Shown: positions 11,881 to 20,890 of the stretch, one piece after another | How positions within the stretch are numbered: the first letter of the stretch is position 1 | Layout: each line of letters starts with the position of its first letter | Source of the DNA: Gammaproteobacteria bacterium | Lineage (GTDB): Bacteria > Pseudomonadota > Gammaproteobacteria > Pseudomonadales > Azotimanducaceae | DNA length: 33,285 nucleotides | Direction: 5' to 3' | Assembly: GCA_026707735.1 (NCBI GenBank) | Contig: JAPOWH010000021.1 | Location: forward strand, 1 to 33,285 | The notes under the pieces: generated by a model | Databases searched by the model: none | What the model was told of the DNA's origin: nothing | Seen by the model: only the letters and a program-made list of their open reading frames with translations | Translations under genes and position numbers: made by a program

Positions 11881-12872
11881 TTTCCTACGACATATACGGA
11901 ATTGGCAACGCCCTTCTCGATACGGAATATGAGGCGACAGACGAGTTCCTCAGGCGCAATCGCGTAGACAAAGGACGCATGACATTGATCGACAACGCTC
12001 GTCGATCTCAACTGCTAGCAGCCGTAAACAGCGCACCTCACGACGTAGCCGCGGGCGGCTCCGCGGCCAACGCAATATACGCAGCGCAAGGTTTCGGCTG
12101 CCGCAATTACTTTGCCGGCCTGGTGTGTGGCGACGCGGTCGGAAATACCTTCAGAAGTGAACTTGCAAAAGCGGGCATTGACACACTGCCGCCAGACGGG
12201 AATCCCAATGCGCACTCTGGCCAGTGCCTGATCTTTGTTACGAAGGATGGTCAGAGAAGCATGAATACCAGTCTGGGCATCTCCGAATCCATTGACACGA
12301 ATCACGTCGATGAGACGACTGTGGCTACGAGCCAATGGACATATGTCGAAGGCTACTTAGCAAGTTCCGTTACCGGAGCGAATGCAGCGAAGCATGCGAT
12401 GGAAATTGCCAAGGCTCATGGAAGAAAAACTAGCCTAACGCTTTCGGACGTTTCCATAGTCGAGAACTTTCGGGCCGCTTTGGCCGAGATCATGGGGCAA
12501 GGAGTCGACTTGATTTTCTGCAACGTCGAGGAAGCTCTGGCTTGGTGTGAGACGGACCGACTCGACATTGCAGGCCGCAGGCTGTTGGACATTGGTCGCA
12601 ATGCTGTCGTTACAGTCTCCGAAAAGGGCTGCTATTTGTCCACGGCTGAGCAGGTGAACGTAAAAGTTGACGGCTTTCCAGTCCAACCGGTGGACAGCAA
12701 TGGGGCTGGGGACATGTATGCGGGGGCGTTCCTCGCTTCGTTGCGGCAGGGAACGAGACTCGACCAGGCAGCTCGGTTCGCGAATTTCGCTGCTTCCCAC
12801 ATCGTCCGCCAATTCGGACCACGGCTCAAGTCGTTCGAAGCATACGGTGAAATTGCCGGTCACTACCGCTAA
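11877..12872 (+). CDS. PfkB-family carbohydrate kinase, probable adenosine kinase
   Basis: 331 residues of the ribokinase/PfkB fold. The N-terminal substrate loop AAGGSAANAIYAAQGFG and the C-terminal ATP/anion-hole signature DSNGAGDMYAGAFLASL (with the catalytic Asp of GAGD) are both clear. The N-terminal motif YDIYGIGNALLDTEYEAT resembles bacterial adenosine-kinase-like proteins more than ribokinase or fructokinase. The expected reaction is ATP + adenosine giving AMP + ADP, but the substrate cannot be proved from sequence. The start overlaps the hemL stop (ATGA). Its TAA overlaps the stop codon of the convergent sfsA by three bases. Confidence 0.82.
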   Translation: MISYDIYGIGNALLDTEYEATDEFLRRNRVDKGRMTLIDNARRSQLLAAVNSAPHDVAAGGSAANAIYAAQGFGCRNYFAGLVCGDAVGNTFRSELAKAGIDTLPPDGNPNAHSGQCLIFVTKDGQRSMNTSLGISESIDTNHVDETTVATSQWTYVEGYLASSVTGANAAKHAMEIAKAHGRKTSLTLSDVSIVENFRAALAEIMGQGVDLIFCNVEEALAWCETDRLDIAGRRLLDIGRNAVVTVSEKGCYLSTAEQVNVKVDGFPVQPVDSNGAGDMYAGAFLASLRQGTRLDQAARFANFAASHIVRQFGPRLKSFEAYGEIAGHYR

Positions 12873-13561
12873 TCCGGCAATTCGAAGGGAATTTGCTCGC
12901 TCAGTCGCCATTCGCTCGGCGAAACGCACCACCGGTATGCAAACATTTCCACTCCTTCAGTGCAAGCTTGGACAATGGCTGCAGCGTAATCAGGGTCTAC
13001 ATCCGATGCAATTGTCATGGAGTGGATCCCATTGTGAGGAACGCAAAACAACAGCACAGCTCGCCAACCATCGGCCGCACATGCTTGCAGAGCTTTCACA
13101 TGCCTCGTGGCACGAGAGCTCACTGCGTCGGGGAAGACTCCAATGCCCTGCCGTAGCCACGAGACCATCTTTACTTCCACAACGATGTTGTCGGCCGCAA
13201 AATCAAGCCTTCCATGCGCGTTCGGAATGGACACCTCTCGATTCCATTTCTCGCACCCAGCCAGCTGTTTGATTTGACGTTTGTGCAACGCTTCGCCAAC
13301 AAGCTGATTGGCTCTAGCCGTGTTTACGCACACCAAGTGCCCAGATTGCGTTTCTACCAATTCGAGAGATCGGCTCAGCTTGCGTTGGGGATTGTCGCTA
13401 ATCGAATACCAGACCTTGCTACCGGGGTCCGAGCAACCATGCATGGCGCCGGTATTTGCGCAATGTATTGTCGTGACCAGGCCAGCCTCTCTTATGTCAG
13501 CAAGGAATCTCTTGTAGCGTCGTATCAGCACCGCTTCAGCGAGCTCAGGGCAAAACTTCAT
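12869..13561 (-). CDS. sfsA: SfsA family protein
   Basis: 230 residues, the usual SfsA length. Family motifs: LIRRYKRFLADI near residue 12, HCANTGAMHG (33-42), VNTARANQLVGEAL (79-92) and FPDAVSSRATRHVKAL (143-158). The central RLDF plus VVEVK (Asp120, Glu129, Lys131) has the D...ExK arrangement of restriction-endonuclease-like folds, as in other SfsA proteins. E. coli SfsA was named for stimulating sugar fermentation and has been described as DNA-binding; its molecular role is still uncertain. In E. coli sfsA precedes dksA on the same strand; here it is divergent from dksA with about 100 nt between the start codons. Confidence 0.94.
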   Translation of the reverse strand: MKFCPELAEAVLIRRYKRFLADIREAGLVTTIHCANTGAMHGCSDPGSKVWYSISDNPQRKLSRSLELVETQSGHLVCVNTARANQLVGEALHKRQIKQLAGCEKWNREVSIPNAHGRLDFAADNIVVEVKMVSWLRQGIGVFPDAVSSRATRHVKALQACAADGWRAVLLFCVPHNGIHSMTIASDVDPDYAAAIVQACTEGVEMFAYRWCVSPSEWRLSEQIPFELPD

Positions 13562-13663
13562 GAATCAGTTTGTCGAGGAATTAAAGCGATTGGCTAGCAA
13601 TCATGCGTGATTTTTGGTAATTTTGCAGACTTGCAATCTTGGGCATCATGCAACGAATCGAAA

Positions 13664-15583
13664 ATGACGTCTCCAACCAAATCGAAAAGCAACGCGCCGG
13701 ACAAGGCAACCAGTTCCACTGAGGCAACGCATTCCAGTGTAACGGCAACTGACGGCAGCGGTGCACAGAGCCCGGCGCCAGCGACCAATAAATCGTCTGC
13801 GAGCGGTAAAGCGAAGTCTAAAGCTACCAAGAAGCCCGCTTCTAAGAAATCAGTGCCCAAAGTAGCTGCCAAAGCGGCAACGGCGAAAAAAGCAACCCCA
13901 AAATCCGCACCAGCGAAGCCAAAACCCAAACCCGCTGCCAAAAGGGCCACTGCAAAGCCCGCAGCAAAAGCCAAAACTTCGGTTAAGAAGAATGCAGCGA
14001 AGGCCGCTACCTCTAAGGCAAAGGCAAGAGCCAAATCCACTGCCAAGTCCTCATCTGAAAAAGCTGTACGGAAACCGGTGCCCAAGAAGGCTAGCGCTGT
14101 GTCAACAAAGAAGTCCCCGGCCAAGAAAGCTGCTGCGCGCGGAAAGAAATCGGCCGCTACGAAGAAAACTCCTCCCAAACCTAGAGCCACAACTAAAGCC
14201 GCAAAGTCATCGACACGTGCAAAAGCAAAGAGCTCCAGGTCTGGCCCCAAATCTGCGGCAAAGACTAGTACGCCGCGAACCCAGGCAAAAGCCAAGCCCA
14301 AGACATCCTCAAGCTCAAAAGTCTCCTCAACTAGAGCGGTTGCGTCGACGAAGACAAGAAGAGCCGCGTCCTCCAAGGCAGCAAGCAAGCGTTCGCAATC
14401 GACGAAAGCAACCAGTGCAAGAAGAAAACCAACTTCCGCGAAATCGAGACGCCCAACCAAGCGTTCAATGGAAGCAACCACAAGGGTTATTGCTGAAGCT
14501 TTGCTCGACTTGATTCAGATGGCGTTGGAAACCAAGGAGGAGTTAGCTTCTTCAAAACCAGTTGCGCCTCGCAGAGCCGCCAAAGCAGCGACAACGAAGA
14601 CAAAGACAACGGCCCGCAAACCCTCCGCAAGGAAGTCAAGTCCCAAGAAATCGGCGAAGGCGACTAAAACAAAGACTTCTGCCAGACGAACCCCCACTAC
14701 GACCGCAACCAAGAAGAGTGTTGCCAGGCCAACGAAGAAAACGCCCACAAAAAAGACGGTCTCCAAGTCCACACCCAAGAAGTCTTTAGCGACGACAGCA
14801 AAGCCTAAGCGAGCTACCGCATCGAAACGCGCCAAACCAGCACCGAAAGCCAAGAGCGCGACTACGAAACTCACTCCAAAAAAAGCAGCCGCTACTGCCT
14901 CGAAAGCAAAACGAGCGACAGCAGCTGAACGCAAAAAATCGGTTCGCGCGGCGCCAAGTGCAGCCAAAAAGGCAAAATCTAAGACACGCAAAACCGCTAA
15001 GAAGGCCGAAGATCCCAGTAGATCCGAGCCGGCTAGATCGGCTCTAGAGGTCCATACTTCGGCCAAGATGGAGAAGCTGGCGGCAATATCCTCTCCCAAG
15101 CCGCCACCTCCGCGGAAGGCAACCTGGTCCATCGGTCCGCTTGGCACGGCGTCAACGACGGGATTCCTTAGAAATCTTGGAATCGAGCCCTACGATCCCC
15201 CACGCGGGGAACCCTACATGTCGCAGACTCAGCATCAGCACTTCCACGAAATATTGGTGCGATGGCGCGAGAAGCTCATGGAGGATGTAGACCGCACGGT
15301 CAACAACATGCAAGGCGAGGTGTCCAACCTTCCCGACCCAGTTGACCAAGGTACCAACGAAGGAATATTCGAAGGAGAATTGCGCACTAGAGACCGTGAA
15401 CGACAGTTAATCAAGAAAATTGCACGGGCGTTGGAGAAGTTGGAGATTCAGGACTACGGATACTGTGACGATTGCGGCATTGAGATTGGACTGCGCCGAC
15501 TTGAAGCTAGACCCATCGCCACAAAATGCGTCGACTGCAAGGAACGCGACGAGGTTCGAGAAAAGCAAGAGCGCGGTGGATAA
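13664..15583 (+). CDS. dksA: DksA fused to a large histone-H1-like Lys/Ala/Ser/Pro-rich N-terminal domain
   Basis: A 639-residue fusion (from ATG 13664; a GTG at 13607 would add 19 residues). Residues 1 to ~470 are very low complexity: Lys, Ala, Ser, Thr, Pro and Arg with SPKK/TPKK and KKPAxK-like units, similar in style to AlgP/AlgR3 and other bacterial H1-like proteins; likely disordered, highly basic and DNA-binding. This tail is interrupted at about 269-295 by a predicted amphipathic helix (MEATTRVIAEALLDLIQMAL). Residues ~488-639 are a full DksA (E. coli DksA is 151 residues): GIEPYDPPRGEPYMSQTQ, WREKLMEDVDRTVNNMQGEV, LRTRDRERQLIKKIARALEK and a four-cysteine zinc finger (Cys601, 604, 622, 625). 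The coiled-coil tip reads DPVDQG (558-563), keeping both aspartates but replacing the Ala of DxxDxA by Gly. DksA binds RNA polymerase in the secondary channel and, with ppGpp, controls rRNA and other promoters. Confidence 0.93.
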   Translation: MTSPTKSKSNAPDKATSSTEATHSSVTATDGSGAQSPAPATNKSSASGKAKSKATKKPASKKSVPKVAAKAATAKKATPKSAPAKPKPKPAAKRATAKPAAKAKTSVKKNAAKAATSKAKARAKSTAKSSSEKAVRKPVPKKASAVSTKKSPAKKAAARGKKSAATKKTPPKPRATTKAAKSSTRAKAKSSRSGPKSAAKTSTPRTQAKAKPKTSSSSKVSSTRAVASTKTRRAASSKAASKRSQSTKATSARRKPTSAKSRRPTKRSMEATTRVIAEALLDLIQMALETKEELASSKPVAPRRAAKAATTKTKTTARKPSARKSSPKKSAKATKTKTSARRTPTTTATKKSVARPTKKTPTKKTVSKSTPKKSLATTAKPKRATASKRAKPAPKAKSATTKLTPKKAAATASKAKRATAAERKKSVRAAPSAAKKAKSKTRKTAKKAEDPSRSEPARSALEVHTSAKMEKLAAISSPKPPPPRKATWSIGPLGTASTTGFLRNLGIEPYDPPRGEPYMSQTQHQHFHEILVRWREKLMEDVDRTVNNMQGEVSNLPDPVDQGTNEGIFEGELRTRDRERQLIKKIARALEKLEIQDYGYCDDCGIEIGLRRLEARPIATKCVDCKERDEVREKQERGG

Positions 15584-15592
15584 GTAGCCACA

Positions 15593-16468
15593 ATCTCAGA
15601 GAGACAGTATGTAGGCAGATTCGCCCCGACCAATTCCGGTACGCTGCACTTAGGATCGCTTGTAGTGGCAGTGGCTAGCTTTCTGGATGCCCGTTCACAC
15701 CATGGAAAATGGCTTCTCCGTATCGACGATCTCGATGTCCCTCGCGTAAGCAAGCAAGCAGAACTGCAAATAGTCGAATCACTGCTCGCGCACGGACTCA
15801 ATTGGGATGACCCGATAGTTCACCAACAGGACCGCCGAGAGCTCTATCAAGCGTTTCTTGGCGCGTTAAGAGATCGATGTGAAACATTTTTTTGCACTTG
15901 CAGTCGTAGGGAGATTGACAGGATTGTTGGGTGTGTAGCGTCGTGCAGGTTCGTTCGCAACGACCCGACGCAACCGCATACCATTAGGATTCACATGGAA
16001 CCTTACAAGATTTCATTCGATGATCGCGTTCAAGGACGTTTTCAAAGCATGGAACCGAGAGAGACCAACATTGCCGTTTGGAGACGCGAGGCAATTCCAA
16101 CATATCCTCTATCCGTTGTAGCAGACGACGCTGCTTCTAGCGTTACTCATGTTGTGCGCGGGGCCGATCTCCTTGCCAACACCGCCCATCAGATTTTCCT
16201 CCAACAGCAACTGCAACTGAATCCAACATCATTTGCCCACCTTCCCGTGCTCAACGAGAGAACAGGCGTTAAGCTCTCCAAACGCGATGCCGCAACCTGC
16301 ATCCACGATAGCCATGCGCACCAAAACCTAGTCTGGGCGTTACAGCTGCTAGGTATGGACCCTCCCCAACAGCTAAGAATTGACTCGCTGTTAGAGTGGG
16401 CAATAGCTACCTGGAACATCGATAAGATCCCTTCGGAGACCGAGATTTCGGATTTCGTTAGCCTCTAG
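15593..16468 (+). CDS. gluQ: glutamyl-Q tRNA(Asp) synthetase
   Basis: About 291 residues. A tRNA-independent GluRS paralogue that attaches glutamate to queuosine in the anticodon of tRNA-Asp. Signatures: YVGRFAPTNSGTLHLGSL with the HIGH-type HLG, LLRIDDLDVPR, and the KMSKS-type KLSKR. There is no ATG, GTG or TTG between the in-frame dksA stop (15581-15583) and the essential YVGRFAP. ATC at 15593 aligns exactly with the Met of E. coli GluQ (ISERQYVGRF against MTDTQYIGRF), so an ATC start is proposed. Starting at GTG 15665 would delete the ATP-binding motif. Zinc ligands appear as Cys101, Cys103, Cys114 and Cys118; the third is Tyr115 in E. coli. The dksA-gluQ pairing is conserved. Confidence 0.9.
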   Translation: MSERQYVGRFAPTNSGTLHLGSLVVAVASFLDARSHHGKWLLRIDDLDVPRVSKQAELQIVESLLAHGLNWDDPIVHQQDRRELYQAFLGALRDRCETFFCTCSRREIDRIVGCVASCRFVRNDPTQPHTIRIHMEPYKISFDDRVQGRFQSMEPRETNIAVWRREAIPTYPLSVVADDAASSVTHVVRGADLLANTAHQIFLQQQLQLNPTSFAHLPVLNERTGVKLSKRDAATCIHDSHAHQNLVWALQLLGMDPPQQLRIDSLLEWAIATWNIDKIPSETEISDFVSL

Positions 16469-17918: not shown

Positions 17919-19166
17919 TTGACTCCCGTAAGTAGCATCAAGCACACAATTTCCGCCCGTGAAATCCCCAGTGCGGTTCGGCGGATCGTAACTAAGCTTG
18001 AAGACAACGGATACGACTCGAAGATTGTCGGGGGTTGCATCCGCGATTTGCTGTTGGACCGGAAACCCAAGGACTTTGACGTTGTTACCGAAGCAAGACC
18101 CAATCAAATCAAGGGGTTGTTCCCTAGCTCAAGGATCATCGGACGACGATTCAAGCTCGTGCACGTCCGATCGGGCAAGAACACGATCGAAGTTTCCACT
18201 TATCGCCGCCGAACCGGTCGTCCGAGCGGCAAAGCCATTCATAGACATTTGAATCTCTACGGATCAGTTGACGAGGACTACTGGACACGTGACTTCACTG
18301 TCAACTCCCTCTACTACGATTGCAAGGCAGGAGAAATACTCGACTATGTAGGAGGATTGAACGACATCGATCAAGGAGTCTTGCGATGCATCGGTAAGCC
18401 GCGGCGACGAATCGTCGAGGATCCTTGCCGAATTCTCCGTGCTGCGCGTTTCATAGCCAAGCTCCCGCTAGCTCTTGATCTCGAATTGGAAGAGGCGATC
18501 TACGAAAACCGAAACCTCATTTCTCAACTCAAACCTGCACGACTGCAGAACGAAATGGAGAAGATGTTCCTAACGGGCAGCGCCGTTTCTACCTATCAAG
18601 CATTGCACGATCTCGATTTGTTGCAGATCCTGTTTCCCCAGTCAACGGACAACAGCCCGTTGGCGTTAGCCGCGATGCAAAGTACAGACTTTCGATTTTC
18701 TGAGAACAAGCCTGTCAAGCTAGGCTTTTTGATTGCAGCTATACATTGGGAGCAGTTCCGGCGACTTGGCCGATACGACCCCTCCGGACGAATGTCGATC
18801 GACAAAGCAATGGAAAGCGCGGAATGCATCATCAAGAGACAACGGGAAACTCTTAGCATGCCGCTTCACATTCGGGACTTTGTGCGTGATATGTGGATCC
18901 TGCAGACACAAATTGAGCGAACTCGACCAAAACGCGTCAAGCAACTACTCGAGCACATGCGTTTTCGAGCCGCCTACGACCTGCTAGTTTTGCGCGCTTC
19001 CGTGGGTGATGCCGATGCCAGCATGGCACAATGGTGGACGGACCTTCAAGAAATGGACGAACCGCAGCAGGATGCCGCAATAGTGAAGAAAGAACGGCGT
19101 CATAGGCAGAAGCGCAATCGGCAGCGCGATCCCGTTGCACTCCCTTCGGCAGCTGTCTCGAATTAG
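17919..19166 (+). CDS. pcnB: poly(A) polymerase I
   Basis: A 415-residue class II nucleotidyltransferase that adds 3' poly(A) tails and marks RNA for decay. Signatures: VGGCIRDLLLDRKPKDFDVV with the catalytic Asp pair, RDFTVNSLYYD, DYVGGLNDIDQGVLRCIG, and the tRNA-nucleotidyltransferase-like core RIVEDPCRILRAARFIAKL. The C-terminus is basic (KKERRHRQKRNRQRD), as in E. coli PAP I. In-frame stops leave TTG at 17919 as the only canonical start before the conserved domain; no good ribosome-binding site is seen. E. coli pcnB also has a rare start (ATT), so weak translation may be a shared way to keep this enzyme low. folK, normally next, is missing. Confidence 0.95.
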   Translation: MTPVSSIKHTISAREIPSAVRRIVTKLEDNGYDSKIVGGCIRDLLLDRKPKDFDVVTEARPNQIKGLFPSSRIIGRRFKLVHVRSGKNTIEVSTYRRRTGRPSGKAIHRHLNLYGSVDEDYWTRDFTVNSLYYDCKAGEILDYVGGLNDIDQGVLRCIGKPRRRIVEDPCRILRAARFIAKLPLALDLELEEAIYENRNLISQLKPARLQNEMEKMFLTGSAVSTYQALHDLDLLQILFPQSTDNSPLALAAMQSTDFRFSENKPVKLGFLIAAIHWEQFRRLGRYDPSGRMSIDKAMESAECIIKRQRETLSMPLHIRDFVRDMWILQTQIERTRPKRVKQLLEHMRFRAAYDLLVLRASVGDADASMAQWWTDLQEMDEPQQDAAIVKKERRHRQKRNRQRDPVALPSAAVSN

Positions 19167-19216: not shown

Positions 19217-20038
19217 ATGAGCAGCCAATCGCGTCAATCGCCAATATCCATAAATACTCTAGCCGCTCGCAAGCGCAACGGTCAAAAGTTCGCATGTCTC
19301 ACAGCTTACGACGCGCTCTTTGCCGAACTGATTAGTTCGAGTGGCATTGAAGTCATGTTGGTGGGAGACTCCTTGGGCATGGTGCTTCAAGGCCACGACA
19401 GCACTTTGCCAGTGACGCTTGATGACATGGAATACCACATGAACTGCGTGCGTCGTGGTAACCAAGGAAGCTTGATCATGGCGGATCTTCCGTTCATGAG
19501 CTATGCGTCTGCAACCCAATCCCTTGAAAGCGCAGCTGCTCTGATGCGATGTGGGGCTCACATGGTGAAATTAGAGGGTGGTGCGTGGTTGGCTGAGAGT
19601 ACTCGACTGCTCTATGAACGCGGAATTCCCGTGTGCGCCCATATGGGTCTCACCCCACAGTCCATTAATCGTTTTGGTGGGTTTAGAGTACAGGGTCGAA
19701 ACCCGGAGCAGGCTTCAAACATGATTGACGAGGCCTTGATTCTTGAGGACTCGGGAGCGTCGGTCCTACTTCTCGAGTGTGTTCCCACCGACTTGGGCAA
19801 AACTATTGCCAACCGGCTGGAAATACCAGTCATTGGAATAGGCGCAGGCCCTCACACGGATGGCCAAATCATGGTTCTGCATGACATGTTGGGGGTTACG
19901 CCGTCGTCTATCAAAGTTCCTAAATTCGTTAAGAACTTCCTGCCTGAAAGCGAGGATGGAATACGAGGAGCGCTGGAGGCCTACGCCAAAGCTGTGAAGG
20001 ACGGTGCGTTTCCAGGACCTGAACACTGCTTTACCTAA
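19217..20038 (+). CDS. panB: 3-methyl-2-oxobutanoate hydroxymethyltransferase
   Basis: A 273-residue cytoplasmic enzyme that makes ketopantoate from 2-oxoisovalerate and methylene-tetrahydrofolate, the first step of pantothenate synthesis. Signatures: KFACLTAYDALFAELISSSG, VMLVGDSLGMVLQGHDSTLP with metal-binding Asp residues, ADLPFMSY, VKLEGG, VCAHMGLTPQS and GIGAGPHTDGQIMVLHDMLG. GAGGG precedes the ATG by about six bases. It is followed after 6 nt by panC, so both pantothenate genes form one unit. Confidence 0.97.
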   Translation: MSSQSRQSPISINTLAARKRNGQKFACLTAYDALFAELISSSGIEVMLVGDSLGMVLQGHDSTLPVTLDDMEYHMNCVRRGNQGSLIMADLPFMSYASATQSLESAAALMRCGAHMVKLEGGAWLAESTRLLYERGIPVCAHMGLTPQSINRFGGFRVQGRNPEQASNMIDEALILEDSGASVLLLECVPTDLGKTIANRLEIPVIGIGAGPHTDGQIMVLHDMLGVTPSSIKVPKFVKNFLPESEDGIRGALEAYAKAVKDGAFPGPEHCFT

Positions 20039-20044
20039 GCTGAT

Positions 20045-20890
20045 GTGGACTTAGTTCGTACTAAGGAGGAATTGCGCGTAGCCCGCGCCGCAATCGAATC
20101 ATCCGCGCTAGTTGGTCTTGTCCCCACGATGGGCAATCTTCACGCCGGCCACTTAGAGCTGGTCGACAGGGCCCGGTCGCAATGTACAAAGGTCATTGCC
20201 ACCATTTTTGTAAATCCGCTGCAGTTTGGCTCCGGTGAGGATTTCTCGACCTACCCCAGAATGCTCGAGCAAGACTCCGATCTATTGATGGGCAGGGGGG
20301 CCGATTTGCTATTCGCGCCCTCCGTCGAAGAGATGTATCCACGTGGAAGAATCGACCATACGAACGTGACCACTGCTCATTTGACCTCAATGCTGTGCGG
20401 TGCGAGCAGACCAGGGCATTTCGATGGCGTAGCCACGGTTGTCAGCAAGCTCTTTAACCTGATTCGACCGCACGTTGCTTTGTTTGGGGAAAAGGATTGG
20501 CAGCAAATGACTTTGATTCGTGCAATGGCTAGCGATCTTGACTTTCCGATTGAGGTTGTTGCCGTTCCAACGGTTAGGGAACGTAGTGGATTGGCGTTAT
20601 CCAGTCGGAATAGCTATTTGAGCGATCAAGAACGAGAGAAGGCTCCATTGCTCTACTCCACATTGGTTGGTGTCAAAGAAAAGGTTCTCCAAGGAGACTC
20701 GCGCTATGGATTCCTGGAGCAGGAAGCTTGCGCCATTCTGGCCAAGTCTGGCTTCGTACCCGACTACGTGTCTATAAGGGAAGGTAGCACCTTAAAGAAC
20801 GCCAACACTGGGAGCACCGATCGACGAGTTTTCGGTGCCGCCCACCTAGGCAAAGCGCGCCTAATTGACAACATCGCCATTGATGCGTGA
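20045..20890 (+). CDS. panC: pantothenate synthetase
   Basis: A 281-residue ATP-dependent ligase joining pantoate to beta-alanine. Signatures: VGLVPTMGNLHAGHLELVDR with the HxGH motif, IFVNPLQFGSGEDFSTYPR, SRPGHFDGVATVVSKLFN, ALFGEKDWQQM and SGLALSSRN (KMSKS-like). The start is GTG at 20045; an ATG at 20042 in another frame stops at once. There is no clear Shine-Dalgarno, so translation is probably coupled to panB. Its TGA overlaps the pgi GTG. panD, which would supply beta-alanine, is not between panC and pgi as it is in Pseudomonas. Confidence 0.97.
   Translation: MDLVRTKEELRVARAAIESSALVGLVPTMGNLHAGHLELVDRARSQCTKVIATIFVNPLQFGSGEDFSTYPRMLEQDSDLLMGRGADLLFAPSVEEMYPRGRIDHTNVTTAHLTSMLCGASRPGHFDGVATVVSKLFNLIRPHVALFGEKDWQQMTLIRAMASDLDFPIEVVAVPTVRERSGLALSSRNSYLSDQEREKAPLLYSTLVGVKEKVLQGDSRYGFLEQEACAILAKSGFVPDYVSIREGSTLKNANTGSTDRRVFGAAHLGKARLIDNIAIDA

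Follow-up and report, generated by a model that had tools for sequence, protein, structure and literature searches.

The dksA gene in the stretch of DNA analysed here (33,285 nucleotides; the window) encodes a protein in which a complete DksA is preceded by a basic tail resembling histone H1. In these bacteria, ppGpp acts through DksA to reset transcription. The gene is the ordinary dksA of the organism, to which a sequence for the H1-like tail has been added in frame at the 5' end, and the fusion of the two parts in a single polypeptide is well supported. We are dealing with a real DksA at an ordinary locus, which shows an extreme form of a widespread feature that, as far as we found, is undescribed: a search of the open-licence literature (titles, abstracts and some passages) yielded no description of an H1-like tail on DksA, and papers on H1-like tails in bacteria, passages of PMC11839049 among them, contributed nothing about DksA. 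New, again as far as found, are the spread of such tails, the extreme length of this one, the helix-like segment embedded in it and the altered tip of the coiled coil, where A76 is changed to Gly. The tail presumably is a disordered polycation that would anchor a functional DksA on DNA, RNA or polyphosphate, and we give this mechanism a probability of about one half.

The reading frame was claimed in an earlier note to run uninterrupted from the basic region into a complete DksA. It is indeed open throughout, from the ATG at 13664 to the stop codon at 15583 (639 residues; ORF analysis), and it ends in matches to both Pfam and TIGR02420. Pfam recognizes DksA_N (PF21157) at residues 523-592 and zf-dskA_traR (PF01258) at residues 597-630; at an E-value of 0.001, it detects nothing in the tail, nor anywhere else outside the DksA part. 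The TIGR02420 dksA model is passed with a score of 139.9 bits (cut-off 115.5), and the cut-off of PRK10778, the equivalog model of the E. coli type, is missed (170 vs. 289 bits). In a phmmer comparison, the final 142 residues align to residues 15-151 of E. coli DksA (E 3.8e-48). No other PF01258 match was found in the genome, which is 95.8% complete and consists of 29 contigs. Family matches identify, besides the neighbors listed in Table 1, hemL and genes for a PfkB-type kinase and a sigma-54 activator in the window; together with sfsA, gluQRS, pcnB, panB and panC, they give the region the look of a standard dksA locus. The proximity of gluQRS and pcnB to dksA, present in the window, is also the arrangement of E. 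coli and Pseudomonas.

Table 1. Features of the dksA region, in positions of the window.
Feature	Position	Strand	Basis or remark
dksA gene, 639 aa, basic tail and complete DksA in a single frame	13664..15583	+	ORF list, Pfam, TIGR02420
Basic low-complexity arm 1, residues 1-263	13664..14452	+	Sequence
Helix-like hydrophobic segment in tail, residues 264-302, PTKRSMEATTRVIAEALLDLIQMALETKEELASSKPVAP	14453..14569	+	By-eye counterparts in G063 and G140
Basic low-complexity arm 2, residues 303-447	14570..15004	+	Sequence
Conserved linker before DksA domain, residues 448-477, AEDPSRSEPARSALEVHTSAKMEKLAAISS	15005..15094	+	Alignment with G140 and G063
DksA domain, aligned to E. coli DksA (1tjl chain A) residues 15-151	15155..15580	+	Pfam, TIGR02420, phmmer
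Coiled-coil tip motif DPVDQG	15335..15352	+	Both Asp kept; A76 to Gly, R75 to Gln
Four-cysteine zinc finger (C601, C604, C622, C625)	15464..15538	+	Pfam, alignment
sfsA, divergent neighbor	12869..13561	-	Family matches
gluQRS, downstream neighbor	15665..16468	+	Family matches; GTG start as listed by the tool
pcnB	17919..19166	+	Family matches; followed by panB (19217-20038) and panC (20045-20890)
Antisense shadow frame over arm 1, probably not a gene	13594..14481	-	ORF list; compare the antisense gene proposed for withdrawal in Xanthomonas
Second antisense shadow frame over the tail, probably not a gene	14515..15147	-	ORF list

The DksA part has the zinc finger, the tip aspartates, K98, R129 and K139 in common with E. 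coli DksA (PDB 1tjl, 5vsw, 5w1t). It retains D71, D74, K98, R129, K139 (E. coli numbering) and all four cysteines. K98, R129 and K139 are residues of the ppGpp site. Across the 106 long-tailed genomes discussed below, K98 and R129 are conserved without exception (106/106), K139 in 103/106, and the four cysteines in 103-106/106. In contrast, E. coli DksA lacks a long tail and has A76 and R75 at its tip, whereas the window protein combines a tail of 497 residues with Gly and Gln at these positions. Its tip departs from the DxxDxA motif in that the Asp pair is present and the Ala is replaced by Gly. A Gly at A76 was found in 9/106 long-tailed and 0/89 short-tailed genomes, a count that excludes 16 intermediate genomes, and all nine belong to g1, the genus code of the window genome; among the intermediate genomes, G151, also of g1, has this Gly as well. 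An imperfect DxxDxA motif has been proposed as a partial cause of the lower activity of TraR relatives (in passages of PMC9239242).

The tail had been put at ~470 residues in the earlier note. A long tail is indeed present, and it is slightly longer than estimated: 497 residues precede the DksA homology, 453 of which lie in basic low-complexity windows. Lys, Ala, Ser, Thr, Pro and Arg constitute 87% of the tail (A 108, K 105, S 74, T 66, P 44 and R 34 of 497), and the net charge amounts to +123 over the 497 residues. Judged from this composition, the tail is probably disordered; a charge-hydropathy measure flags the folded DksA domain, too, as disordered and, therefore, discriminates nothing. 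Between the two basic arms, there is a hydrophobic segment to which a helix fits better than a strand (hydrophobic moment 0.35 vs. 0.10). The segment starts with RRPT in the window genome (G000) and in its nearest relatives, G063 and G140; the three copies were matched by eye, and MAFFT left the window copy out of register with those of G063 and G140. Hydrophobic segments located more than 30 residues from both ends of the tail occur in 7/18 g1 genomes as compared to 5/89 long tails outside g1, and, with a margin of 20 residues, these numbers become 12/18 and 9/89. Other segments in g1 are of an RRTPN type near the N-terminus or of a AEVVSIGIVARR type near the domain, and they relate to the segment at residues 264-302 by resemblance rather than by demonstrated homology.

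Comparison with G140 and G063, the tails of which comprise 373 and 451 residues, respectively, points to a translated tail. The first ATG of the window gene is aligned with the first ATG in both relatives, and the proteins start with M-T-S or M-T-L. Across 366 aligned codons, the tails of G140 and G063 share an identity of 54%, whereas shuffling of the codons yielded 31% on average and 35% at most (40 shuffles). Differences between them at codon positions 1, 2 and 3 amount to 0.35, 0.24 and 0.61 per codon, respectively (0.57, 0.49 and 0.72 in the shuffles); hence, third positions are the most and second positions the least divergent, which is a coding-like pattern. The identity of the window tail to the two relatives (0.364 and 0.386) barely exceeds the maxima of shuffled sequences (0.352 and 0.355; 30 shuffles each) and, thus, composition rather than position appears to be kept at that distance. 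Within the 900 bases that precede the DksA domain, the DksA frame encodes at least 100 basic residues in 106/211 genomes, vs. 29 and 3 genomes for the other frames of the same strand and 0, 0 and 0 for the antisense frames. This concentration in one of six frames argues that the tail frame is not a product of chance. Synonymous codon usage is uninformative and does not set the tail frame apart. The single frame, the aligned start and the coding-like divergence agree with the earlier claim that tail and DksA are made as one polypeptide, and this claim is correct as judged from sequence comparison.

An assembly artefact, which would have undermined the fusion according to the earlier note, is disfavored. 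Tandem Repeats Finder detected no tandem array in the DNA of the gene, which argues against the collapse or expansion of a repeat during assembly, and the two sister genomes share the architecture, their starts being aligned and their divergence being of the coding type; no sign of an artefact was seen in either respect.

The earlier note had also proposed to search relatives for the same architecture, and it had suggested that N-terminal DksA extensions may exist in other Gammaproteobacteria. Such extensions do exist, as basic DksA tails of at least 100 residues were found in 106/211 genomes spanning 34/71 family codes. The detailed examination covered 211 genomes (85 in f1, the family code of the window genome, 49 in the order and 77 in the class). 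Long frames or high scores guided part of the choice and, therefore, the genomes represent an enriched, not a random sample. At least 100 basic residues before DksA were counted in 51 genomes of f1, 14 of the order and 41 of the class; 16/211 genomes have 60-99 such residues, and 89/211 have fewer. The tail of the window protein is the longest of all 211, and the longest one outside g1 measures 353 residues. Within f1, 171/200 genomes match the DksA domain at 1e-15. All 18 listed g1 genomes carry long basic extensions, 17 of them according to a script (at least 120 basic residues) and G151 as read by eye, because the script misplaced the edge of its domain. For several of these genomes, the DksA domains are only ~55% identical within g1, so the genus code looks too broad.

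In the order and the class, the matches examined were those with a frame of at least 230 residues, which could hold such a tail. Among the matches listed, these were 20/150 for the order, where 14 of 19 genomes examined qualify, G316 having contributed a second copy as the twentieth match, and 61/149 for the class, which were all examined and of which 41 qualify. The listed length of a frame is an upper limit only (for G057, 451 listed vs. 161 by script) and, therefore, served solely to exclude tails. Of the class genomes beyond those listed that were retrieved in a phylum-level search and read by eye, G444, G539, G596 and G704 carry long Lys/Ala/Pro-rich tails; the extension in G655 is shorter and not as basic, and G827 has no such tail. 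In G444, G704, G596 (L283, L285, L287) and G539 (L284), the long tails are attached to DksA proteins with cysteine-depleted fingers (CVDTGEE, CEETGEP). Among 90 sampled genomes of the same phylum outside the class, one of which gave no DksA match, no long basic tail was found. Their best matches listed have frames of at most 235 residues, with a single exception of 307 residues, and no Lys-rich tail is present in G809, G853 and G837, which have the longest frames. Thus, the feature is not peculiar to the window organism and is common among the Gammaproteobacteria-type genomes sampled. A further example is a metagenome-assembled genome, Gammaproteobacteria bacterium NP964 (L038), with a 212-residue tail of 40% Lys plus Arg before the DksA domain.

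On a tree of DksA domains (FastTree), the distribution of long and short tails requires at least 24 changes, a count that is rough because the tree is based on one short domain and on FastTree; 50 sets of shuffled labels required 57-72. Tails are, therefore, clustered by descent and yet have often changed. The repeat units vary by lineage (AKKA, KPAA, SKKK, TTKT), while the basic composition persists.

An extended DksA has a precedent in Xanthomonas euvesicatoria, where the extension is said to be rich in Lys and Ala. Peptides detected by mass spectrometry and start-codon mutagenesis demonstrated in 2017 that the protein comprises 256 and not 147 residues; a processed variant was found as well, and withdrawal was proposed of a gene annotated antisense over the extension (passages of PMC5559785). 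Likewise, the window protein is extended at its N-terminus from an upstream start and overlapped by antisense frames, but its tail of 497 residues compares to an extension of only ~109 residues in Xanthomonas.

In the mechanism that we favor, the DksA domain would still enter the secondary channel of RNA polymerase and work together with ppGpp. The N-terminus of DksA is located outside this channel in the E. coli structures and, therefore, the tail could hang free. It would bind polyanions without sequence specificity, in the first place nucleoid DNA, with RNA or polyphosphate as alternatives, and DksA would be kept enriched on the nucleoid close to the polymerase. A coupling of transcription to nucleoid state, polyphosphate or ppGpp, as raised in the earlier note, would be conceivable. 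The embedded helix-like segment may add a site for self-association or for a partner. The tether is favored by the completeness of DksA with its kept residues, the presence of the tail in all 18 listed g1 genomes, the coding-like divergence between the sisters, the persistence of the composition and the clustering on the DksA tree. Counted against it are the near-shuffled identity between the window tail and those of the sisters, the uninformative codon usage, and the 89/211 genomes that, like E. coli, lack a tail of 60 basic residues.

Two other protein families add to the case. AlgP of Pseudomonas aeruginosa also contains an H1-like, Lys/Pro/Ala-rich basic region, which is predicted to be disordered, and DNA binding in vitro is reported for KPAA peptides as well as for part of the AlgP tail (passages of PMC9239181), which we count in favor of the tether. 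However, AlgP is a separate protein with an N-terminal helical domain of its own and a C-terminal tail, whereas the window tail is N-terminal, longer and rich in Ser and Thr. Of the link to AlgP drawn earlier, the compositional part stands, as an AlgP-type Lys/Ala/Pro-rich basic low-complexity region is present in the window tail and the DksA tail of G052 (L226) contains 17 KPAA units; tandem KPAA repeats as in AlgP are not seen in the window tail, which has only 2 of these units. The second family is HU (PF00216). In G140 (G140:C2:11656-12171) and G063 (G063:C4:7761-8291), an HU-family protein retrieved with an AKKA-type query carries an N-terminal AKKA tail of 60-70 residues (L241, L243, L245, L246), which is similar to that of DksA, although HU, unlike DksA, has a DNA-binding fold of its own. 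By analogy, these proteins support, but do not prove, the notion that such tails serve DNA contact in the lineage. In the window genome, the HU protein (G000:C18:417169-417477, L247) is 81% identical in its core and has only a short basic lead, which counts against the tether. Relatives of HU were found in 8/18 g1 genomes at 1e-6, and the basic leads of the remaining five are intermediate in length.

Alternatively, the tail could be made and then cut off, so that one gene would deliver a free H1-like polycation and a DksA of normal size, perhaps in a growth-dependent ratio. The processed variant of the extended Xanthomonas protein makes processing possible in the window protein as well and would weaken a lasting tether, and the conserved linker immediately precedes the DksA domain, stopping ~20 residues upstream of it. 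However, no cleavage site could be identified, the linker may just as well be a motif for interaction, and regulation of the processed form is not mentioned in the passages available from the Xanthomonas report (PMC5559785). We consider cleavage rather unlikely. It is decidedly unlikely that the tail binds mainly polyphosphate or RNA instead of DNA and takes DksA into starvation granules or condensates. AlgP, with its similar basic KPAA-rich tail, does associate with polyphosphate granules and requires the tail for their spacing (passages of PMC9239181), and a net charge of +123 over 497 residues would suit such a ligand, but the sequence does not distinguish between DNA, RNA and polyphosphate.

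The tail might also be near-neutral low-complexity sequence, the length of which changes in both directions by slippage and which an exposed N-terminus tolerates. The strongly different lengths among relatives, with at least 24 changes on the tree, the lineage-specific repeat units and the barely elevated identity of the window tail to those of the sisters would fit. Nevertheless, we regard this explanation as improbable, given the tail in each of the 18 listed g1 genomes, the positions aligned well above shuffles and the coding-like codon divergence between G140 and G063, the lack of a tandem array in the DNA, and the helix-like segment kept in the three nearest genomes. Finally, an internal translation start that yields a short DksA and leaves the upstream frame untranslated, a refutation foreseen in the earlier note, is hardly credible: codon usage does not favor the tail frame and a Met in the domain, M519, is invariant (35/35 aligned proteins), but a start there would cost ~31 residues of an E. 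coli-type DksA, the Met nearest to the domain (in MEKLAA) is no Met in either sister (three-way alignment), the first ATG at 13664 aligns with theirs, and Xanthomonas uses an upstream start (passages of PMC5559785).

A wider picture can be drawn tentatively, with the odds against it: in many Gammaproteobacteria, DksA may be a nucleoid-tethered transcription factor whose H1-like tails were repeatedly gained or lost, and the extreme tail, the helix-like segment and the A76G/R75Q tip may have produced here a combined nucleoid-binding and RNA-polymerase-regulating protein. The solved structures of DksA that were found by search are those of tail-less proteins. If a sizeable share of gammaproteobacterial DksA proteins carries a polycation of 100-500 residues, it may be necessary, for those species, to revise models of the location of DksA in the cell, of the amount open to polymerase, and of the links among starvation, compaction of the nucleoid and polyphosphate. 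As the tail is cleanly removable, its role is directly testable. There is also a warning for annotation: the start of dksA is readily placed too far downstream, and spurious antisense genes are readily predicted over the tail. Both antisense frames in the window are long, have hydrophobic translations and are likely to be mis-annotated as genes.

Queries with tail sequences retrieved little. An AKKA-type tail gave matches in 4/50 genomes, none of them at the listed DksA position; since the query missed the DksA tails that many of these 50 genomes carry, the absence of matches says little. With the window tail as the query, no second locus was detected in its own genome at an E-value of 1, in a search that is insensitive, as tail queries miss known tails. 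Separate frames that consist largely of KKPAA/AKKA repeats were observed in G022 (L242) and G052 (L244), and the match in G052 crosses one stop codon.
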